Position numbers and translations under genes: made by a program. The notes under the pieces were generated by a model. That model saw nothing but the letters and a program-made list of their open reading frames with translations, did not search any database and was not told the DNA's origin. Source: Lentimicrobium sp. (GTDB lineage Bacteria > Bacteroidota > Bacteroidia > Bacteroidales > Lentimicrobiaceae). From it: a stretch of 57,143 nucleotides of DNA. Position 1 is the first letter of the stretch. The number at the start of each line of letters is the position of its first letter. This document shows, in pieces, positions 1 through 57,143 of the stretch. The stretch spans positions 1-57,143 of the forward strand of contig JAHYJC010000030.1 in the NCBI GenBank assembly GCA_019429275.1, written 5' to 3'.

Positions 1-124
1 GGAAAACAGAATACCAGTTAACACTTTTCTAACAAACCGCCGTATACCGAACGGTACGTACGGTGGTGTGAGAGGTCGGAAAATAAAACAGGAGGAAAAC
101 TGTTTTATTTTCCTCCTACTCGAT
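1..124 (+). mobile_element. 3' end of a group II (class C) intron, domains V and VI
   Basis: Domain V is the hairpin at about 37-66: CCGCCGTATACC, a GAAC loop, then GGTACGTACGGTGG. Its catalytic triad reads CGC (38-40), the form typical of class C introns, where other classes have AGC. Domain VI follows as a perfect 14-bp stem (78-91 with 100-113) and an 8-nt loop. The conserved tail CCTACTCGAT puts the 3' splice site near 124. The motifs match my memory of the Oceanobacillus iheyensis class C intron. The rest of the intron, including any reverse transcriptase, lies outside the window. A short frame at 3-32 ending in TAA could be the last codons of such a protein, but this is too short to call. 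Confidence 0.85.
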
Positions 125-38895: not shown

Positions 38896-40098
38896 TTAAA
38901 CCCTTTCGATAGCCAAGGCGATGCCCTGACCAACACCAATACACATGGTGCAAAGGGCTTTGCCGAGTTGATTACGCTGAAGCTGATGCACTGCTGTTGT
39001 AACTAATCGGGCTCCACTCATGCCAAGCGGATGCCCGATGGCAATGGCTCCACCCTGTGGATTTATCCTCGGATCATCGTCGGCAATTTTCAGCAGCCGG
39101 GTGCAGGCCAACGACTGGGCTGCGAATGCCTCATTAAGTTCAATGATGTCAAAATCTTTCAGTGATAATCCTGTTAATGTCAGCAATTTTTCTGTAGCCG
39201 TTACAGGTCCAATACCCATGATTCTCGGTGGTACTCCCGCACTCTGCATGGCAATAATCCTGGCCAGGGGTTTGAGGTTAAATGCTTTAACGGCTTCTGC
39301 AGAGGCAACGATCAGTGCAGCAGCACCATCATTTACTCCCGAAGCATTGGCTGCGGTAATGGTACCTTCGGGCCGCGTAATAACTTTAAGTGTAGCCAGT
39401 TTTTCAAGTGGTGTGAGCCGTGGAAATTCATCGGCGCTGAAAATCATCGGATCTGACTTTGGAACCGGAATCGGAACCGGAATTATTTCAGCATCAAGCC
39501 ATCCCTTCTCTTTGGCTTCTTTGGTTTTCAGCTGACTGCGATAGGCGAAAAAGTCCTGATCTTCTCGGCTGATTTTGTATTCCTGTGCCAGGTTTTCGGC
39601 GGTTTCAATCATTGAATCTACACCATAGAGCTGCTGCATTCTTTTATTTACAAACCGCCAGCCAATCGTAGTATCGTAAATTTCGGTTTGACGGGCAAAT
39701 GCTTCTGTTGCCTTACCCATCACGAAAGGGGCACGGCTCATGCTTTCCACTCCACCGGCAATAATCAGGTGGGCTTCGCCGGCTTTGATGGCGCGCGAAG
39801 CAGCTCCAACGGCTTCCATACCTGATCCGCAAAGGCGGTTAACTGTTACACCGGGAACTGTGTGAGGTAAACCGGCAAGCAGCAAAGCCATACGCGCCAC
39901 GTTGCGGTTATCTTCGCCGGCCTGGTTGGCACATCCGTAAATAACATCATCGATGTGTGAAGGATCAATTCCCGGATTACGTTCCAGAATATTTTTCATG
40001 GGGATAGCCGCAAGATCGTCAGTCCTGACAGAGGCAAGAGATCCCCCGTAACGTCCAATAGGTGTGCGTATTGCATCGCAAATAAATACTTCTTTCAT
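38896..40098 (-). CDS. pcaF: 3-oxoadipyl-CoA thiolase-like acyltransferase
   Basis: The 400-residue thiolase has the active-site C90 in VNRLCGSGMEA, H356 in IAIGHPLGMSG and C386 in CTMCIGVGQG. Beyond the general family it carries the marks of 3-oxoadipyl-CoA thiolases (PcaF/PaaJ): YGCANQAGEDNRNVARMALLLAGLP at 54-78 and DTTIGWRFVN near 147. These enzymes split 3-oxoadipyl-CoA with CoA into succinyl-CoA and acetyl-CoA. It is the last gene of a five-gene minus-strand operon, 40 bp after the aminotransferase. A plain acetoacetyl-CoA thiolase is possible, but the signature argues otherwise. Transcript end signals are not obvious downstream. Confidence 0.85.
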   Translation of the reverse strand: MKEVFICDAIRTPIGRYGGSLASVRTDDLAAIPMKNILERNPGIDPSHIDDVIYGCANQAGEDNRNVARMALLLAGLPHTVPGVTVNRLCGSGMEAVGAASRAIKAGEAHLIIAGGVESMSRAPFVMGKATEAFARQTEIYDTTIGWRFVNKRMQQLYGVDSMIETAENLAQEYKISREDQDFFAYRSQLKTKEAKEKGWLDAEIIPVPIPVPKSDPMIFSADEFPRLTPLEKLATLKVITRPEGTITAANASGVNDGAAALIVASAEAVKAFNLKPLARIIAMQSAGVPPRIMGIGPVTATEKLLTLTGLSLKDFDIIELNEAFAAQSLACTRLLKIADDDPRINPQGGAIAIGHPLGMSGARLVTTAVHQLQRNQLGKALCTMCIGVGQGIALAIERV

Positions 40099-40138
40099 AG
40101 AAGCGGGATTTTAATGGTTAACCGTAATGTAAAAAAAC

Positions 40139-41482
40139 TTAAGCCGATAGATAGGGTTTGATAAACCTGAAACTATTCAGCATGGCTTCGCTCAGCATAT
40201 CAATTTCCTTTTGCGTGATGACGGTTGACAGCACGCACGAACAGGAATTGATAATGATGATGTTTTCTTCGTACATTTTATCGAGGAAGAGGTTGATCAC
40301 TTTTTTTCTGGCAGCATCTTCATAGCTTTCGCGGAAGTTTGTCGGGGCAACCTCACGGAAATGTATTTTAAACATAGAACCTTTACCGGTGATGCTCAAA
40401 GGAATATCTGCAAGTTTTCCGGCTTCCTTTATCTGTTTAATGGCAATCTGTGAATTGTGATTCAGTTTGTCCAAGGCTTCTCTGTCAAGCAATTCCATTG
40501 CTACTTTGCCCGCTGTCATTGATACAGGATTTGCCGAAAAAGTACCGGAAAGTGCAAATCTGTAGTCGTTACCACTGGGATCGAGAATGTTCATAATTTC
40601 TTTGTTGCCTGCAAGACCACCAATAGGAAAGCCTCCACCAATGATTTTTCCAAGTGATGTAAGATCAGGTTTGACATTATAATTACTTTGAGCTCCTTCA
40701 TATGCAACCCTGAAACAGATGACTTCATCAAAACAGAGCAGGGCATTATTTTGCCGGGTCCAGTTGTAAACGGCTTCCACAAATTCAGGAGTTGCCTGCA
40801 CCATACCAATGCGGTGAGGCACCGGATCAATAATGACACAAGCCAGGTGAGCAGCATGCCGGTTCAGGATATTAATGGTACGCTCAATATCGTTGTATGG
40901 AAAAATTACTACGTTATCGAGCACCTCCTTTGGAGTTCCCTGCACATGTGCAACACTGTTCGGGCTGTCGATATCGCCCCAGTTGGCCGGTGAGGCACTC
41001 TGGCTTACCTCGGCAGTGTCGAAACTGCCATGATACCCGCCTTCAGCTTTGGCAATCTTTGGCTTTCCGGTATATGCGCGTGCTGCTTTGATCATAGCCA
41101 TAACAGCTTCGGTTCCTGAGTTCATGAAACGGATTTTGTCAAACCCGGGGACACGGTTACATAACAAGCTGGCATGTTCTATTTCAATTTCTGTTGCCAG
41201 GGTATAGGCTGTTCCTTTTTTGATCTGGTTGCAAACAGCTTCAACAATTTTCGGATGGGCATGGCCATGGATCAGAGAGGCAATGTTATTGGCAAAATCA
41301 ACTTTTTTTACTCCGTTAATATCAGTTATATAACAGCCTGAAGCTTCCGACACGTAAAAGGGGTGAGGCTTATGGAAAACAACATTGCGGCTGATGCCTC
41401 CAGGCATTACCTCACAGGCGGTTTTATAAAGTTCTTCTTCCGTTGCTTCTGTTTTCATCTTATAATCTTGGTTGCTCGACAT
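40139..41482 (-). CDS. Class III aminotransferase, candidate beta-amino acid (3-aminoadipate) transaminase
   Basis: The 447-residue PLP enzyme belongs to the class III fold near glutamate-1-semialdehyde aminomutase. It has the GTE motif (123-125), D252 in LCFDEV and the PLP lysine K279 in SLGKIIGGGFPIG. The N-terminal PGGISRNVVFHKPHPFYV (27-44) is the stretch that in beta-phenylalanine-type transaminases supplies an arginine (here R32) for the substrate carboxylate. It sits in the operon with an aminomutase before it and a 3-oxoacid CoA-transferase beside it. I therefore infer that it turns the beta-amino acid made by the mutase into a 3-oxo acid. GSA aminomutase proper is unlikely, because no heme-pathway gene is near. 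It starts 28 bp after the CoA-transferase gene. Confidence 0.8.
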   Translation of the reverse strand: MSSNQDYKMKTEATEEELYKTACEVMPGGISRNVVFHKPHPFYVSEASGCYITDINGVKKVDFANNIASLIHGHAHPKIVEAVCNQIKKGTAYTLATEIEIEHASLLCNRVPGFDKIRFMNSGTEAVMAMIKAARAYTGKPKIAKAEGGYHGSFDTAEVSQSASPANWGDIDSPNSVAHVQGTPKEVLDNVVIFPYNDIERTINILNRHAAHLACVIIDPVPHRIGMVQATPEFVEAVYNWTRQNNALLCFDEVICFRVAYEGAQSNYNVKPDLTSLGKIIGGGFPIGGLAGNKEIMNILDPSGNDYRFALSGTFSANPVSMTAGKVAMELLDREALDKLNHNSQIAIKQIKEAGKLADIPLSITGKGSMFKIHFREVAPTNFRESYEDAARKKVINLFLDKMYEENIIIINSCSCVLSTVITQKEIDMLSEAMLNSFRFIKPYLSA

Positions 41483-41510
41483 GATATTTGTGATTTTGTA
41501 TTCGGTGAGT

Positions 41511-42161
41511 TTAGTATTGTTTCAGTTCGGCTTCGGTACAGCTTTTCAAATAATCAAAATCAATTTCGGGAGCCATTTCCCTGACATACAGCCCTGTATC
41601 TTTGACATCAATCACGGCGTAATCGGTGTAAATGTGGCTGACTACGCCTTTTCCGGTAAGTGGATAAGAGCAGTGTTTTACAATTTTCGGTTCACCATTT
41701 TTGGTAAGATGCTGGGTAAATATAATGATGGTTTTAACCCCCTGCACCAGATCCATGGCTCCGCCTACGGCAGGTATGGCGCCCGGCTCGCCGGTTGACC
41801 AGTTGGCGAGATCACCGTTTTCTGATACCTGAAAAGCACCCAGCACGCAGATATCGATATGTCCGCCCCGAATCATGGCAAAGCTGTCGGCATGGTGAAA
41901 AAAGCAGGCTCCTTTAATTGCAGTCACAGGTTTTTTGCCGGCGTTAATGAGTTCATCATCTTCATTTTCTTTGACAGGAGAGGGGCCAACCCCCAGCAAG
42001 CCGTTTTCGGTATGAAAAATAACTTCCCTGTCATGGGGAATGTAATTGGCTACAAGTTCCGGCAGCCCGATACCAAGGTTCACGTAAGCTCCGTTTGGGA
42101 TGTGGCCGGCTATTTTCTGAGCCATTTCCTCACGGTTCCATCCTTTTCTTATTTCTACCAT
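41511..42161 (-). CDS. pcaJ: 3-oxoadipate CoA-transferase-like subunit B
   Basis: The 216-residue subunit carries the catalytic glutamate in FHTENGLLGVGP (about residue 52), the residue that forms the CoA thioester intermediate in type I CoA-transferases. NLGIGLPELVANY, INAGKKPVTAIKGACFFHHADSF and FQVSENGDLANWSTG follow the sequence of PcaJ-type 3-oxoadipate CoA-transferases closely; SCOT-type ones are less similar from memory. The enzyme would move CoA from succinyl-CoA to a 3-oxoacid. Its start overlaps the subunit A gene by 7 bp, so the two are made in equal amounts. Confidence 0.88.
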   Translation of the reverse strand: MVEIRKGWNREEMAQKIAGHIPNGAYVNLGIGLPELVANYIPHDREVIFHTENGLLGVGPSPVKENEDDELINAGKKPVTAIKGACFFHHADSFAMIRGGHIDICVLGAFQVSENGDLANWSTGEPGAIPAVGGAMDLVQGVKTIIIFTQHLTKNGEPKIVKHCSYPLTGKGVVSHIYTDYAVIDVKDTGLYVREMAPEIDFDYLKSCTEAELKQY

Positions 42162-42868
42162 GGGTACCTCCTGTTCTCACTGATCAGTTGATTTTCGCTG
42201 ACCGGATTGGTAATTTCTACTACTTTTTTTACAAAAATTCCTGGTGTGATCACGATTTCGGGATCAATGCCGCCAAGCTCCACGATTTCAGCAGCCTGAA
42301 CAATGGCCGATTTGGCTGCCATACACATTATCGGACCAAAATTGCGGGCTGTTTTATTGAATAGCAGATTTCCGTAACGGTCTGCAATTTTACATTTAAC
42401 CAGTGCAAAATCGGCTTTCAGACCATATTCCATCACATAGGGTTTTCCGTTGAAAAGCCGGATCTCTTTGCCTTCGGCAAGCGGCGTGTTGACCGAAGTA
42501 GGGGTAAAGAATGCCGGAATTCCGGCACCTCCGGCCCTGATGCGTTCAGCAAGAGTGCCCTGGGGAACCAATTCCAGTTCAATTTCACCTTTGCGGTAAA
42601 GCTCAGGAAACACAACAGAATTTGCTGTCCTCGGAAACGAACAGATCATTTTCCGGACCTGTTTGTTTTCAATCAGTGCGGCAAGGCCAATGTGACCGTT
42701 GCCGGTATTGTTGCTCACCACGGTCAGGTTACGGGCTCCCTGATCTATCAGGGCATGAATGAGTTCAATGGGGCTTCCGGCTTCTCCGAAACCACTGATC
42801 ATGATGGTGGCTCCGTCAAAAATATCAGCCACAGCTTCTGAAGCTGTTTTTGCTATCTTGTTGATCAT
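42155..42868 (-). CDS. pcaI: 3-oxoadipate CoA-transferase-like subunit A
   Basis: The 237-residue subunit has the glycine-rich SGFGEAGSPIELIHAL (25-40), VVSNNTGNGHIGLAALIENKQVRKMICSFPRTANS (50-84), LELVPQGTLAERIRAGGAGIPAFFTPT and NFGPIMCMAAK. This agrees with PcaI almost stretch by stretch. It pairs with the overlapping subunit B gene to make a type I CoA-transferase. The gene begins 20 bp after the aminomutase gene, in the same operon. That a 3-oxoadipate enzyme sits directly behind an amino acid mutase is the main clue to the proposed pathway. Confidence 0.88.
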   Translation of the reverse strand: MINKIAKTASEAVADIFDGATIMISGFGEAGSPIELIHALIDQGARNLTVVSNNTGNGHIGLAALIENKQVRKMICSFPRTANSVVFPELYRKGEIELELVPQGTLAERIRAGGAGIPAFFTPTSVNTPLAEGKEIRLFNGKPYVMEYGLKADFALVKCKIADRYGNLLFNKTARNFGPIMCMAAKSAIVQAAEIVELGGIDPEIVITPGIFVKKVVEITNPVSENQLISENRRYPW

Positions 42869-42888
42869 AATAATGAATTATTTTCAGA

Positions 42889-44472
42889 CTATTTTTTTCG
42901 GGATGTCACAATGGATTTTTCTAAATGGTTCTCGATCTGATTAAGCTCATCTTCATAAAAATGCTGGTCGGCACCATAAGGTTTCAGATTTGCCATTGTG
43001 TTTTCTTGTTCATCATATTTAACAAGTATTACCTTATCCATCCATTCCATGTTCCTGGCTTCATTAAATTTCAGGGCGAAAAGTTTCTCTCCGTTATGTT
43101 CAAGGGTTCCCAGCATAGAAATTTTTCCGGCCGATGAGGTCATGGTAATGTACCTCGACGGGCGGTTAATGGATGCCAGTGAACGGTAAACCTTGCTGAA
43201 TACTTCATTGATTTTTGCCAGCGGTTGGGTGAAATAATGATGCTCTCCGGTTGGACGGGCACAGTACATGGAGTGGAATCCCACGCCAAGCATGGCGAAC
43301 AGGTTGCCAAGATCAATCCAGTTTTGGGCAGAGCGGTCAACATCTACTTCGCCATTTTCATTGGAAAACAGACTGATGTGATTCATTATTGGGCTCTGGC
43401 TCTTTACCGTAACCCCATTGGCTTTAAGTCGTCGGATGGCTGCAATGGTGCTGGGATTCATCAACTCGCGCGGCGTAGAAAAATGCGACATAAACACCAA
43501 CTGAATTCCGTTTTCGTATAGCTTTTTGAATAAACTGAGCATTTTGTTGTACGAAGGCATGATGATCAGCTCCGGGTTAAAGGTCAGTACTCGGGTTCCC
43601 AGACGTATGGTTTTGATATGGCCAAGTGCCGGATCTTCAATAATGGGTGTGATGTATTCTTCGAAACGGTCGGCACTGATATATCCGGCATCACCACCTG
43701 TAATCAGCACATCGCTGACTTCTTTATGTTGTTTCAGGTATTCATGAACCTGGTAGATATCCTTCTGTACAAACATGTCCTCATCACCGCGCACCTGTGC
43801 ATGACGGAAACAGTAGTTGCAGAATGCAAAACAATTCTGGGTCTGTATGTCGAAAATTAACTGGCACTGAGGATATTTATGCTGACTTCCTTCAACTACC
43901 TCGGCTTCTCCGTCTGAATTGATAAAAGTAGGCTTATTAATTTGTTGTTTGCCGTCATGAGGGTTGGTTTCCTTCATGTAATCCTTTACTATCTGTTGCT
44001 TTTCCTCTTCAGTTGAGGCACTCAGAAAGGCTTTTGCCACGTCGGGCCTTATCATTCCCGGCTGAGGGAAAACCAACTGAAAAACCGAATCTTTCTTAAA
44101 ATTTGACCAGTTGATGGTGTTCAAAACATGTTTGGTAGCCATAAACCGGTAAATATGAATGAACAATTCACGCTCCTCAAGGTGGCCAATGTGTATGCCG
44201 TTGGATTCCAGAATTTCGTTGATCTCCCTGAAGCCTTTCAGCCCGATGTATTGTTTTTTATCGTTAAAATGAAACTCCTCTTTTTCCTTCAATCCCGAAT
44301 GTTGGGGAAAAGTTGTATGCACGCGGCTCAAAACTCCTACCGGAAGAAGATTCTCATTGTGGATAATGGCTTTGGTTTCATCAGAATAATGGAAACGGTT
44401 CATCAGGTTTTCTACATCAGCTTTGCTGAAAAGTACTTTTTCAGGTGCGACTGTCATCGTGTTGTTGTTCAT
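42889..44472 (-). CDS. KamA-family radical SAM 2,3-aminomutase, candidate 2-aminoadipate aminomutase
   Basis: The 527-residue protein belongs to the PLP- and radical-SAM-dependent aminomutases. It has the CxxxCxxC iron-sulfur motif at C214, C218 and C221 (CFAFCNYC), R223 at the place that binds the substrate carboxylate, LITGGDAGY (256-264) for SAM, and the PLP lysine K450 in SSAGK. By count from that lysine, the two aspartates that hold the lysine side chain in Clostridium lysine 2,3-aminomutase (D293, D330) are missing. The nearby residues are A405/R406 and T443. The substrate side chain is thus probably not an amine; a carboxylate fits better. About 89 extra N-terminal residues precede the core. 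Context suggests 2-aminoadipate; glutamate or lysine are alternatives. Confidence 0.85.
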   Translation of the reverse strand: MNNNTMTVAPEKVLFSKADVENLMNRFHYSDETKAIIHNENLLPVGVLSRVHTTFPQHSGLKEKEEFHFNDKKQYIGLKGFREINEILESNGIHIGHLEERELFIHIYRFMATKHVLNTINWSNFKKDSVFQLVFPQPGMIRPDVAKAFLSASTEEEKQQIVKDYMKETNPHDGKQQINKPTFINSDGEAEVVEGSQHKYPQCQLIFDIQTQNCFAFCNYCFRHAQVRGDEDMFVQKDIYQVHEYLKQHKEVSDVLITGGDAGYISADRFEEYITPIIEDPALGHIKTIRLGTRVLTFNPELIIMPSYNKMLSLFKKLYENGIQLVFMSHFSTPRELMNPSTIAAIRRLKANGVTVKSQSPIMNHISLFSNENGEVDVDRSAQNWIDLGNLFAMLGVGFHSMYCARPTGEHHYFTQPLAKINEVFSKVYRSLASINRPSRYITMTSSAGKISMLGTLEHNGEKLFALKFNEARNMEWMDKVILVKYDEQENTMANLKPYGADQHFYEDELNQIENHLEKSIVTSRKK

Positions 44473-54850: not shown

Positions 54851-55834
54851 ATGCCATACGCTTCAAATGTCAGAAATTCCCTGCCGGTTTACTACCTTTT
54901 TGCCGTTCTTTCCATGTTGTTTTGGGGGTTGACTTTCGTGTGGTTTACCATTGCTGTGAAATATTATGAACCAATAACCATCATCTTTATAAGGCTTGTG
55001 CTATCATCAGCACTCTTATTCTCTTATATGTATGTTTTTAGGAAGAATGAGCCAATACAGAAATCAGATTTCAAATGGTTTGCACTTCTTACTATAAGTC
55101 AGCCATTTATGTATTTTTTGGGCGAAAGCTTTGGGCTTAAGTTTGTTTCGCCTACCATTTCATCTGCCATCATTGCAACAATCCCTTTATTTGCTTCGAT
55201 TGCTGCTGTTTTGTTTGTCAGGGAGAAAGCAGGTTGGTTGACCTGGATTGGCATCCTGGTTTCGATTATTGGCATTATTTTTATGCTCGTAAACCGTGAC
55301 TTTAGCCTGACCGCATCACCAAAAGGAGTAGCGCTTTTACTTCTGGCAGTATTTTCGGCTGTGGTTTACTCGGCTTTGGTCAAACGATTGACGCATAAGT
55401 ACTCAGCATTGACGATAATTTCGTATCAGAATTTATTGGGTGCATTTTATTTTCTTCCCTTATTTTTAATTTTTGATTTCAAACATTTTATACAGGTAAT
55501 TCCAAATCGGGAACTGGTTTTGGCTATTCTTCAACTTGCATTTTTTGGTTCCTGCCTGGCCTACCTTTTCTTTATTATGGCTGTGGCAAAACTTGGAATG
55601 GTTAAAACAAACATCTTTTCAAACCTGATACCTGTGTTTACAGCAATTTTTGCTTATTTTGTCATTCATGAAATTTTTACTGCTCAGAAAGTTGTTGGAG
55701 TGATGCTGGTGGTTTCAGGAATTATGGTTTCTCAATTACAGACAGTGTTTCAATTGATTAAACGAGAACATAATAAAATTCAATTGATTAAACGAGAACA
55801 TAATAAAAACAGAATTAATAAAACGGAAATATGA
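54851..55834 (+). CDS. DMT-superfamily (EamA) permease
   Basis: The 327-residue protein has about ten membrane helices in two EamA halves (10-148, 158-302), with FWGLTFVW in the first helix, SPTISSAIIATIPLFASI, and FSNLIPVFTAIFAYFVIHEIF near the end. Such proteins export amino acids or other metabolites; the substrate is not known. The tail carries a perfect 30-base tandem duplication (55749-55778 and 55779-55808) adding ten residues (QLIKREHNK twice). It overlaps the next gene by 4 bp (ATGA), so it is coupled to saccharopine dehydrogenase. Confidence 0.9.
   Translation: MPYASNVRNSLPVYYLFAVLSMLFWGLTFVWFTIAVKYYEPITIIFIRLVLSSALLFSYMYVFRKNEPIQKSDFKWFALLTISQPFMYFLGESFGLKFVSPTISSAIIATIPLFASIAAVLFVREKAGWLTWIGILVSIIGIIFMLVNRDFSLTASPKGVALLLLAVFSAVVYSALVKRLTHKYSALTIISYQNLLGAFYFLPLFLIFDFKHFIQVIPNRELVLAILQLAFFGSCLAYLFFIMAVAKLGMVKTNIFSNLIPVFTAIFAYFVIHEIFTAQKVVGVMLVVSGIMVSQLQTVFQLIKREHNKIQLIKREHNKNRINKTEI
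55749..55808 (+). repeat. Perfect 30-bp tandem duplication in the permease C-terminus
   Basis: Two identical 30-nt units (55749-55778, 55779-55808) starting TTCAATTGATTAAACGAG. The repeat is in frame and lengthens the charged tail by ten residues. The gene stays open and keeps its 4-bp overlap with the next gene. Confidence 0.9.
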
Positions 55835-56970
55835 AAATACTCGTTCTGGGAGCTGGCCTTGTGGGTGGCCCAATGGCAATAGATCTTGCAAAAGACGGAG
55901 AATTTGATGTTACAGTTGCTGACATTAGTAGTGATGCGCTTTCGAAACTTGAAGGAAAGCCAGGTATTGAAACTGTCCGCGCCGATCTGGATAAAACCGA
56001 AACCATTAATTTCCTTTGCGATGGGAAGGATTTGGTGATCAGCGCTGTGCCTGGTTTTATGGGTTTTCGTACGGTTGAGCGTTTGATCGGTTGCGGAAAA
56101 AATGTAGTTGATATTGCATTTTTCCCTCAGGATATGTTTGCGCTTGATCAAAAAGCCAAAGACAGTAATGTAACTGTAATCTGCGATATTGGTGTTGCTC
56201 CCGGTATGAGTAATGTATTGATCGGATATGGTGCAAGCATGCTCGACACCCTTGAAAAAGGCATTACCTATGTTGGAGGATTGCCCGTGGTAAGAACCTG
56301 GCCTTATGAATACAAAGCGGTTTTTTCGCCCATCGATGTTATCGAAGAATACACCCGCCCTGCCCGTTACATCGATGGTGGCAGAATGGTGGTTCGTGAG
56401 GCCTTATCAGACCCTGAATTGCTCGATTTTCCCGGCGTTGGAACACTCGAAGCATTCAATAGCGATGGATTGCGAACGCTGGCTACTACCATCAAGGGCG
56501 ACTATATGATTGAAAAAACGCTTCGCTACAAAGGTCATATCGAAAAAATAGCAGTGCTGCGCGATACCGGTTTCTTCGACAAGGAGCCGATTAATATCAA
56601 TGGTGTGATGATTAGCCCGCTGGAGTTTACTTCGAAGTTACTTTTCCCGAAATGGAAACTCGAAAAAGGGGAAGAAGATCTGACCATCATGCAGGTGATT
56701 GTTGAAGGCCTCAAGGATGACATCAGGCAGCGCTATACCTGGAATCTTCTTGACCGTTATAACCCTGAAACCGGTGTTCATTCCATGGCCCGCACTACAG
56801 GCTATACTGCTACCATGGCTGCCAGAATGCTTGCACAGGGGCTTTATACACACAAAGGTGTTTCTGCGCCGGAATTTCTGGGCAAAGACCCGAAGATTGT
56901 CAGCTTTTTACTGGAAGGCCTGCGAAGAAGGGGAGTAGTTTACAAGGAAGAGCATGAGGTTTTGGAATAA
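55831..56970 (+). CDS. Saccharopine dehydrogenase-family protein (glutamate-forming, LYS9-like)
   Basis: The 379-residue protein starts with a Rossmann loop GAGLVGGP (7-14) and has an early VVDIAFFPQDMF and the core CDIGVAPGMSNVLIGYGA (about 112-129). GGLPVVRTWPYEYK (about 151-164) and the C-terminal MARTTGYTATMAARML are typical of LYS9-like saccharopine dehydrogenases. These form 2-aminoadipate semialdehyde and glutamate from saccharopine. The related carboxynorspermidine dehydrogenase cannot be fully excluded. It is translationally coupled to a DMT permease and followed by a terminator into which a group II intron has inserted. It may feed the aminoadipate operon 11 kb away. Confidence 0.85.
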   Translation: MKILVLGAGLVGGPMAIDLAKDGEFDVTVADISSDALSKLEGKPGIETVRADLDKTETINFLCDGKDLVISAVPGFMGFRTVERLIGCGKNVVDIAFFPQDMFALDQKAKDSNVTVICDIGVAPGMSNVLIGYGASMLDTLEKGITYVGGLPVVRTWPYEYKAVFSPIDVIEEYTRPARYIDGGRMVVREALSDPELLDFPGVGTLEAFNSDGLRTLATTIKGDYMIEKTLRYKGHIEKIAVLRDTGFFDKEPININGVMISPLEFTSKLLFPKWKLEKGEEDLTIMQVIVEGLKDDIRQRYTWNLLDRYNPETGVHSMARTTGYTATMAARMLAQGLYTHKGVSAPEFLGKDPKIVSFLLEGLRRRGVVYKEEHEVLE

Positions 56971-57018: not shown

Positions 57019-57143
57019 GTGCGTCAGGCATGTATATCAGCTATAGGGTGCAAGTCCCGAACACGCTTCACAGTAAGGAGTGTTAGCCAAGAGCAAGGGT
57101 GTCCATCGCGAGATGGAATCTGAAGGAAGCTGGCGGCAAAAGT
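57019..57143 (+). mobile_element. 5' end of a group II (class C) intron, start of domain I
   Basis: The fragment starts with the consensus GTGCG (57019-57023). It then carries conserved domain I stretches: CTATAGGGTGCAAGTCCCGA, GGAGTGTTAGCC, CAAGGGTGTCCATCGCGAG and GGAATCTGAAGGAAGCTGG with the GCGGCAAA loop. These are the familiar marks of a bacterial class C intron. The window ends inside domain I, so the encoded reverse transcriptase is not seen. Orientation is the same as the saccharopine dehydrogenase gene. Confidence 0.88.

Follow-up and report, generated by a model that had tools for sequence, protein, structure and literature searches.

A conserved five-gene operon of Lentimicrobium and other bacteria proposed to degrade 2-aminoadipate, derived from lysine, via 3-oxoadipate

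We propose that the products of a five-gene operon of Lentimicrobium sp. carry out the lower half of lysine catabolism, from 2-aminoadipate onward, by a pathway that proceeds via 3-oxoadipate, and we assign this reading a probability of roughly 0.8. The radical-SAM enzyme would move the amino group of 2-aminoadipate from C2 to C3, and the resulting 3-aminoadipate would be converted to 3-oxoadipate by the class III aminotransferase. A two-subunit CoA-transferase would then transfer CoA from succinyl-CoA onto 3-oxoadipate, yielding 3-oxoadipyl-CoA, which the PcaF-type thiolase would cleave to succinyl-CoA and acetyl-CoA. The net conversion would be 2-aminoadipate, a 2-oxo acid, and CoA to an amino acid, succinate, and acetyl-CoA, with no need for decarboxylation, an acyl-CoA dehydrogenase, or O2. 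Upstream, the conversion of lysine to 2-aminoadipate would begin differently in different organisms, with lysine-ketoglutarate reductase (LKR) plus saccharopine dehydrogenase (SDH), with lysine 6-aminotransferase, or with a lysine dehydrogenase, and would be completed by L-piperidine-6-carboxylate (aminoadipate-semialdehyde) dehydrogenase (P6CDH). The broader claim, that an L-2-aminoadipate 2,3-aminomutase joins lysine breakdown to the end of the beta-ketoadipate pathway in a previously undescribed, multi-phylum route free of O2, acyl-CoA dehydrogenation, and CO2 loss, also seems probable, if somewhat less so. A literature search, narrowly phrased in part and made mostly outside subscription journals, returned no such pathway, which falls short of proving its absence. 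What can be read from the sequences is the gene content and order, the families of the thiolase, CoA-transferase, and P6CDH, the loss of lysine-binding residues, and the physical linkage of the genes.

An ORF check confirmed five minus-strand open reading frames in the window, i.e., the whole stretch of 57,143 nucleotides analyzed (Table 1). The recomputed intergenic gaps along the operon were 20, -7, 28, and 40 bp, the 7-bp overlap being that between the adjacent genes for CoA-transferase subunits A and B. Coordinates and family models bear out the five closely spaced genes exactly as described in an earlier note on this DNA, and the operon is real and more than a chance association. No riboswitch was found in the window, where the sole Rfam matches were group II intron pieces at the ends, and promoter and terminator scans of the operon region gave results at chance level only.

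Table 1. Features of the operon and of one further gene in the window
Feature	Position	Strand	Length	Family models
Radical-SAM/PLP aminomutase, distinct KamA-like family; proposed L-2-aminoadipate 2,3-aminomutase	42889..44472	-	527 aa	
3-Oxoacid CoA-transferase subunit A, PcaI-like; proposed succinyl-CoA:3-oxoadipate CoA-transferase	42155..42868	-	237 aa	TIGR02429
3-Oxoacid CoA-transferase subunit B, PcaJ/ScoB family	41511..42161	-	216 aa	TIGR02428
Class III PLP aminotransferase, HemL/beta-transaminase branch; proposed 3-aminoadipate transaminase	40139..41482	-	447 aa	PF00202
3-Oxoadipyl-CoA thiolase, PcaF/PaaJ type	38896..40098	-	400 aa	TIGR02430, NF006551
Saccharopine-dehydrogenase-family protein resembling lysine 6-dehydrogenase; outside the operon	55831..56970	+		PF16653, PF03435

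The same five-gene order, which the note had suggested seeking in other genomes, is conserved across phyla. A single scan with the aminomutase as the query yielded 45 loci, in records ranging from Bacteroidales to proteobacterial, Ignavibacteriae, Krumholzibacteriia, and Sumerlaeota ones, and the full order KamA-CoaA-CoaB-AT-thiolase was kept in 34 of them. Subunit A of the CoA-transferase lay downstream of the aminomutase on the same strand in all 45 loci, at a distance of 12 to 507 bases. Five of the 11 loci without the full order were ended by a contig edge (L002, L003, L013, L023, and L045) and six were variants: four had no thiolase in reach (L009, L031, L034, and L035), this aminotransferase was absent from one (L033), and a different aminotransferase, placed after the thiolase, was present in another (L036).

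The thiolase exceeded the cutoffs of the PcaF equivalog TIGR02430 (673.4 bits; cutoff, 597) and of NF006551 (684.6 bits; cutoff, 605). A third 3-oxoadipyl-CoA thiolase model, NF006001, was missed (512.9 bits; cutoff, 622); this model represents another sub-branch. The thiolases of four other loci (L043, L027, L012, and L037) scored 653 to 682 bits against TIGR02430, passed NF006551, and missed NF006001 with 505 to 553 bits. In a tree containing 20 operon thiolases, drawn from 21 of the 45 loci and the window, these did not form one clade but shared a branch (support, 98/91) with six PcaF rows and one Streptomyces thiolase, set apart from the acetoacetyl-CoA thiolases. The first solved relative was 8gqh ("Thiolase"), followed by the beta-ketoadipyl-CoA thiolases 6pca and 6pcb.

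Both CoA-transferase subunits passed their models: subunit A scored 357.5 bits against TIGR02429 (pcaI/scoA; cutoff, 128.5) and subunit B 300.1 bits against TIGR02428 (pcaJ/scoB; cutoff, 243.55). Subunit A was 56 to 63% identical to six subunits adjoining pcaF, pca, or cat genes, 67% identical to a Tistrella subunit, and 40 to 50% identical to four others. The identities of subunit B overlapped, with 51 to 60% for PcaJ-type and 49 to 54% for other subunits. Trees were built from 22 operon rows per subunit (21 of the 45 loci and the window); rows labeled as acetoacetate type were named from neighbors annotated as acetyl-CoA C-acetyltransferase, and an unannotated Escherichia coli row is presumably AtoD. 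For subunit A, the operon rows grouped with PcaI and Tistrella at moderate support (91/92). For subunit B, PcaJ and Tistrella were split from the operon rows and the others (82/92), with an unresolved base. Subunit A thus appears, with moderate confidence, to be closer to PcaI, and the kinship of subunit B, which does not side with PcaJ, is undecided. In the comparison with PcaIJ, PcaF, and acetoacetate enzymes that the note had put forward as a check, the thiolase thus groups with PcaF and subunit A lies, at moderate support, nearer PcaI; the adverse outcome, a placement among acetoacetate enzymes, was not obtained for these two proteins.

The best model for the aminomutase was TIGR00238 ("KamA family radical SAM"; 79.5 bits; cutoff, 199.2). 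Because this score and that against PF04055 (Radical_SAM; 22.3 bits; cutoff, 29.5) are below the cutoffs, we regard the enzyme as a divergent KamA relative. Its scores were also far below the cutoffs for all named KamA subfamilies, among them lysine 2,3-aminomutase (TIGR03820; 74.2 bits; cutoff, 525.4) and glutamate 2,3-aminomutase (TIGR04368; 65.2 bits; cutoff, 650). By its residues it belongs to the radical-SAM PLP aminomutases (KamA superfamily). R134, assigned to the alpha-carboxylate, and the PLP lysine K337 (LAM numbering) were retained in all 44 operon rows, which represent the window and 43 of the 45 loci (L044 and L045 were too partial, and only the larger piece of L040 was used). The cysteines of the CX3CX2C cluster motif were present in 44, 43, and 44 of the 44 rows, the single gap being an unread letter. 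D293 and D330, which bind the lysine side chain in LAM and were both present in all 14 reference rows (15 less L168, which had been read on the wrong strand; 7 of these, L176 to L182, are under the TIGR03820 cutoff), were replaced by Arg and by Thr or Ser, respectively, in 44 of 44 operon rows. The positions of R134 and of the cluster cysteines agree with structure 2a5h. The operon aminomutases formed their own clade (support, 100/99). Arg at the D293 position was also seen in further KamA-like proteins, functionally uncharacterized ones, so that it indicates "not lysine" rather than "aminoadipate"; the proposed substrate of the enzyme would be 2-aminoadipate. A second KamA relative of the Lentimicrobium genome, on another contig (C27), was 34% identical, and none of the other operon genes occurred within the 17 kb examined around it.

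The aminotransferase matched PF00202 (206 bits; cutoff, 30.5), and its best NCBIfam model was HemL (TIGR00713) at 356.8 bits, below the cutoff of 527.3. Its solved relatives were 6k8h, ForI, GSAM, a beta-transaminase, and a beta-phenylalanine aminotransferase. We infer 3-aminoadipate as its substrate.

The operon was contiguous with P6CDH in 3 of the 45 loci, which belong to separate lineages. The orders were KamA-CoaA-CoaB-AT-Thio-P6CDH-SDH in L043, P6CDH-KamA-CoaA-CoaB-AT-Thio together with a PF16653 lysine-dehydrogenase-like gene in L040, and KamA-CoaA-CoaB-AT-P6CDH in L031. All of these P6CDH proteins exceeded the cutoff of 730 of the equivalog NF050084 (804.1, 804.1, and 758.3 bits, respectively), as did that of Lentimicrobium (786.5 bits), the genome of which also carries adjacent LKR and SDH genes. 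Linkage of the operon to LKR in two further genomes (G159 and G169), suggested by coordinates, was rejected, the genes being on different contigs. Within the window, the best solved match of the protein encoded at 55831..56970 was 3abi (PH1688; 201 bits), which we take to be a lysine dehydrogenase, and this protein may offer another way of converting lysine to aminoadipate semialdehyde.

Co-occurrence with the saccharopine route, another check proposed beforehand, held in part. In the order sample, close-type LKR was present in 9 of 10 operon genomes versus 32 of 138 others (P = 3.8e-5); co-occurrence tests of this kind are inflated by relatedness, and the close-type threshold (385 bits or more) was chosen after the scores were seen. 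The contiguity in three loci likewise agrees with such a link, whereas P6CDH alone was not enriched in this sample (4 of 10 versus 34 of 138; P = 0.23). LKR or P6CDH was present in 36 of the 45 operon genomes, a set that overlaps the order sample (G043/G153, G027/G158, and G105/G173 are the same places) and is not independent of it. Two further genomes carried an L-lysine 6-transaminase over the cutoff, and one had only a PF16653 match of 65 bits. None of the lysine-entry enzymes sought was found in the remaining six (G149, G150, G174, G182, G185, and G186; the PF16653 search omitted G149 and G150), one of which, G174, is Shewanella corallii DSM 21332 and not a metagenome-assembled genome.

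Most of the computational checks that the note had proposed turned out favorably, and gene order, linkage, and the PcaF-type thiolase lend support to the chain from 2-aminoadipate through 3-aminoadipate, 3-oxoadipate, and its CoA ester to thiolysis. The earlier note went too far, however, in calling it the only chain that uses all five genes, as one starting from glutamate does so too. This main rival would run through 3-aminoglutarate, 3-oxoglutarate, and 3-oxoglutaryl-CoA to malonyl-CoA and acetyl-CoA. Glutamate, too, would be compatible with an Arg in the pocket for the side chain, glutamate 2,3-aminomutases exist (TIGR04368), and the operon genomes in which no lysine-entry enzyme was found would be explained. 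We nevertheless consider it improbable, given the 65.2 bits of the aminomutase against a cutoff of 650, thiolases that pass the equivalog for C6 3-oxoadipyl-CoA, and the contiguity of the operon with P6CDH, SDH, and lysine-dehydrogenase-like genes. Lysine or beta-lysine as the substrate, with the operon serving a modified form of the established 3,5-diaminohexanoate fermentation, would agree with the KamA-superfamily motifs and the nearby lysine-linked genes. The replacement of both lysine-binding Asp residues in all 44 rows, the low TIGR03820 score (74.2 versus 525.4 bits), and a thiolase type that fits a C6 dicarboxylate make it very unlikely. The canonical lysine fermentation was ruled out because no lysine 2,3-aminomutase over the TIGR03820 cutoff was found in the Lentimicrobium genome (best score, 105 versus 525).

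Two other readings retain 2-aminoadipate and alter its origin or fate. The operon might degrade 2-aminoadipate that is external or stems from oxidized protein lysine, with lysine genes only loosely tied to it; although the six genomes without a detected entry route and the lack of P6CDH enrichment speak for this, direct linkage to SDH, P6CDH, and a lysine-dehydrogenase-like gene in L043 and L040 and the LKR enrichment leave it little credence. Least likely of all, the chemistry could run in reverse, condensing succinyl-CoA and acetyl-CoA and aminating the product to 2-aminoadipate, e.g., as a lysine precursor. CoA-transferases and transaminases are reversible, and fungal LKR and SDH can work in the lysine-forming direction. 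Thiolases, however, favor thiolytic cleavage, the operon-linked P6CDH is an oxidizing enzyme, and the Lentimicrobium genome encodes a protein of the DapD family (NF008808, above its cutoff), which belongs to the diaminopimelate route to lysine. We infer for the proposed 2-aminoadipate pathway a degradative direction, with flux from lysine.

If true, the proposal would enlarge the set of pathways known for a major amino acid and extend radical-SAM aminomutases to a new reaction, and the 2-aminoadipate exit in such bacteria would become directly testable with one purified enzyme. It would also correct database readings, the best models being those of a KamA relative, a glutamate-1-semialdehyde-aminomutase relative, a 3-oxoacid CoA-transferase, and a 3-oxoadipyl-CoA thiolase; the operon genes could wrongly pass for aromatic degradation. 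A means by which uncultured Bacteroidota without a recognized glutaryl-CoA route use lysine would be suggested, and the delivery of all six carbons as succinate and acetyl-CoA would suit fermenters. A possible application is the production of adipate-type chemicals from lysine.

Compared with known systems, the proposed route would share its upper half (LKR, SDH, and P6CDH in the Lentimicrobium genome) with the saccharopine pathway to glutaryl-CoA. The latter continues by C2 transamination, 2-oxoadipate dehydrogenase, and glutaryl-CoA dehydrogenase, whereas the operon would use 2,3-aminomutation and 3-oxoadipate. Acyl-CoA dehydrogenases were located at three places in the Lentimicrobium genome, which is 96% complete, and glutaryl-CoA dehydrogenase was not recognized in the two that were compared with the PDB: short-chain types matched best, and the first glutaryl-CoA dehydrogenase scored far lower (259 versus 400 and 233 versus 408 bits). 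The route through HglS (DUF1338, 2-oxoadipate dioxygenase/decarboxylase) also exits from the aminoadipate level; HglS acts on 2-oxoadipate and uses O2. Its gene is absent from the operon, and on Tistrella pTM2 it adjoins P6CDH and the plasmid CoA-transferase closest to that of the operon. The 3,5-diaminohexanoate fermentation likewise has a radical-SAM PLP 2,3-aminomutase entry and a CoA-dependent cleavage exit, but its lysine 2,3-aminomutase has the substrate-binding Asp pair that is replaced in the operon enzyme. Glutamate 2,3-aminomutase belongs to the same superfamily and resembles the operon enzyme in its acidic side-chain substrate, as proposed here, yet the operon enzyme scores 65 bits against a model cutoff of 650. 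With the lower beta-ketoadipate pathway (PcaIJ and PcaF), the last two steps would be the same and the enzymes are related. In that pathway, 3-oxoadipate, a compound familiar chiefly from aromatic degradation, arises from ring cleavage, whereas here it would come from an amino acid without oxygen or CO2 loss, and the genes for the CoA-transferase and thiolase are joined instead to those for an aminomutase and a transaminase.

The five minus-strand genes described in the earlier note were recovered on recomputation with exactly the same coordinates (window positions 38896 to 44472) and gaps. NCBIfam and Pfam identified a divergent KamA-like radical-SAM protein (the operon aminomutase, KamA), CoA-transferase subunits of the PcaI/ScoA and PcaJ/ScoB types (CoaA and CoaB), and a class III aminotransferase (AT) scoring under the HemL cut-off. 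The window thiolase exceeded two of three NCBIfam cut-offs for 3-oxoadipyl-CoA thiolase. The window corresponds to contig C46 in a genome of 4.19 Mb (96% complete), and the closest fetched loci were L042 (a Bacteroidetes record) and L001 (a Lentimicrobium record). Rfam detected group II intron pieces at both window ends; a group II intron present in repeated copies is therefore the probable cause of the contig breaks.

A single scan, using the aminomutase as the query, yielded 45 loci. The five-gene order, for which the earlier note suggested a genome search, recurs: KamA-CoaA-CoaB-AT-thiolase was complete in 34 loci; the other 11 comprised 5 truncated by contig ends and 6 variants. According to record titles, 31 loci belong to Bacteroidota and the remaining 14 are labeled Ignavibacteriae, Krumholzibacteriia, Sumerlaeota, Verrucomicrobiia, Desulfuromonadales, or alpha-, beta-, or gammaproteobacteria (including Shewanella corallii); the source records are mostly MAGs, and individual labels may be wrong. 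This wide spread of an intact order suggests that the genes travel and function as one unit. The transaminase step seems replaceable, since L036 carries another HemL-like aminotransferase (31% identical) downstream of the thiolase and L033 contains no homologue of the operon aminotransferase within the cluster. Regulators beside the operon vary with lineage. One family occurs in 10 of the 45 loci, all Bacteroidota by title, and its single scanned member is of the HTH-cupin type. A LysR-type protein adjoins the operon in Shewanella and, by reading only, in L022, L033 to L036, and L040.

Features outside the operon, with coordinates in the window or in the named locus
Feature	Location	Strand	Remark
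RF00029	window 35-124	+	Rfam, left contig end
group-II-D1D4-3, first 42 positions	window 57102-57143	+	Rfam, right contig end
EamA-type transporter and lysine-dehydrogenase-like gene	window 54851-56970	+	PF16653, 3abi match
Second KamA relative	L068:7626-8963 (own genome, C27)		446-aa frame
Regulator of the family with an HTH-cupin member	L029:9372-9926	+	family in nine further loci
LysR-type regulator	L027:8820-9689	-	Shewanella, scanned

The aminomutase scored 74 bits against the lysine 2,3-aminomutase model (cut-off, 525) and 65 bits against the glutamate 2,3-aminomutase model (cut-off, 650). The window copy was aligned with those of 43 of the 45 loci. All 44 rows retained the alpha-carboxylate arginine (R134, lysine 2,3-aminomutase numbering) and the PLP lysine (K337), and the cluster cysteines were retained throughout except for one unread letter. 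The D293 position was Arg in all 44 rows and the D330 position was Thr in 31 and Ser in 13, versus Asp at both in 14/14 reference rows. In the solved lysine 2,3-aminomutase, D293 and D330 bind the side chain of lysine. Their replacement speaks against lysine and favors a substrate with an acidic side chain, without separating 2-aminoadipate from glutamate. The same Arg is found in other KamA-like proteins outside the operon family; the operon aminomutases formed a separate clade (100/99, with 7 of our rows in the tree). A second KamA relative of the same genome, 34% identical, also has this Arg and lacks operon partners nearby. Proteins like it adjoin polyketide or adenylation genes on actinobacterial plasmids (L218 and L219).

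Thiolases of the window, L043, L027, L012, and L037 all passed TIGR02430 and NF006551, and none of the five reached NF006001. Trees were built with plasmid-borne references whose identities derive from annotation and neighboring genes. The operon thiolases grouped with PcaF, away from acetoacetyl-CoA thiolases (98/91). Two of them, from the alphaproteobacterial operons L033 and L038, were nested within a branch of pca-cluster PcaF rows, a placement that looks as if the gene had been swapped between operon and pca cluster. Subunit A shared 56 to 63% identity with six subunits adjoining pcaF, pca, or cat genes, with which it also grouped (91/92), versus 40 to 50% with four others. For subunit B, identities overlapped (51 to 60% for PcaJ-type, 49 to 54% for others), and in the tree, whose base was unresolved, PcaJ and Tistrella separated (82/92) from a set comprising our rows and the other subunits. 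The PcaIJ/PcaF affinity claimed earlier was supported for the thiolase and moderately for subunit A; subunit B allowed no decision. The top-ranked plasmid relative of the operon CoA-transferase (67%) is from Tistrella mobilis pTM2 (L183). It lies with P6CDH (L-piperidine-6-carboxylate, or aminoadipate-semialdehyde, dehydrogenase), a regulator, and HglS, a 2-oxoadipate dioxygenase/decarboxylase, in a stretch lacking aminomutase and thiolase, and may therefore serve a different lysine exit.

Genes for entry from lysine are present in the host genome. Lysine-ketoglutarate reductase (LKR), which among solved structures is closest to alpha-aminoadipic semialdehyde synthase (274 bits), adjoins a saccharopine dehydrogenase (SDH) carrying PF16653. 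An ALDH7-type dehydrogenase exceeds the P6CDH cut-off (786 versus 730), its best named solved matches being antiquitin, alpha-aminoadipic semialdehyde dehydrogenase, and Pcd. The window also encodes a lysine-dehydrogenase-like protein, whose gene is overlapped by that of the EamA-type transporter by 4 bp; the pair may represent another lysine module. Three loci have the operon in contact with lysine-entry genes on the same strand: KamA-CoaA-CoaB-AT-Thio-P6CDH-SDH (L043), P6CDH-KamA-CoaA-CoaB-AT-Thio followed by a PF16653 protein (L040; best solved match 3abi, 63.7 bits; KamA split in two pieces), and KamA-CoaA-CoaB-AT-P6CDH (L031). All three P6CDHs passed NF050084. With P6CDH placed randomly among about 3,500 genes, a rough estimate predicts fewer than one case within five genes across 45 loci. 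The upper genes also form clusters of their own at other places in operon genomes, namely LKR-SDH-P6CDH (L149) and P6CDH-LKR (L148).

Co-occurrence was evaluated in 148 Bacteroidales genomes (requested completeness, at least 90%), where an aminomutase above 700 bits defined the 10 operon genomes; another 29 held only distant KamA relatives below 250 bits. With kinship ignored throughout, LKR was enriched in operon genomes, both as the close type (9/10 versus 32/138; P = 3.8e-5) and as any LKR at E <= 1e-20 (10/10 versus 71/138; P = 0.0018), whereas P6CDH was not significantly so (4/10 versus 34/138; P = 0.23). The expected association stood for the reductase but not for the semialdehyde dehydrogenase. 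Pooling close LKR or P6CDH gave 10/10 versus 52/138 (P = 1e-4). In this sample, G043, G106, G131, G028, G078, and G064 have LKR but no ALDH7-type P6CDH at E <= 1e-100.

Among the 45 operon genomes, LKR was found in 30 (close type in 25) and P6CDH in 29; both were absent from nine. Two of these nine, G177 and G184, have an L-lysine 6-transaminase over the cut-off, and G181 has a PF16653 match of unsure meaning. No lysine-entry route was found in the other six, G149 (1.8 Mb), G150 (1.7 Mb), G182, G185, G186, and G174, of which the last four were covered by the PF16653 check; G174 is the non-MAG genome of S. corallii. In G192, P6CDH and an L-lysine 6-transaminase over the cut-off lie about 1.1 kb apart on one strand, and in G183 P6CDH adjoins a PF16653 protein. 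Since LKR, L-lysine 6-transaminase, and PF16653 entries occur in different operon genomes, the same lower operon is, judging by gene content, paired with several distinct predicted entries to the aminoadipate level.

In the proposed route, known enzymes would convert lysine via aminoadipate semialdehyde to 2-aminoadipate, which the aminomutase is predicted to convert to 3-aminoadipate. The aminotransferase, given its HemL-like and beta-transaminase relatives, would then form 3-oxoadipate. The CoA-transferase, by its family, would presumably yield 3-oxoadipyl-CoA, which the PcaF-type thiolase would cleave to succinyl-CoA and acetyl-CoA; this succinyl-CoA could supply the CoA-transferase. Such a route would proceed without carbon loss, O2, or a need for glutaryl-CoA dehydrogenase. 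The host genome has three acyl-CoA dehydrogenase places, and the two compared with solved structures matched short-chain types best. A full-text search of part of the literature found no paper linking 2-aminoadipate, an aminomutase, and 3-oxoadipate. The parts of the pathway are of known kinds, while the pathway itself and the proposed mutase activity seem to be new.
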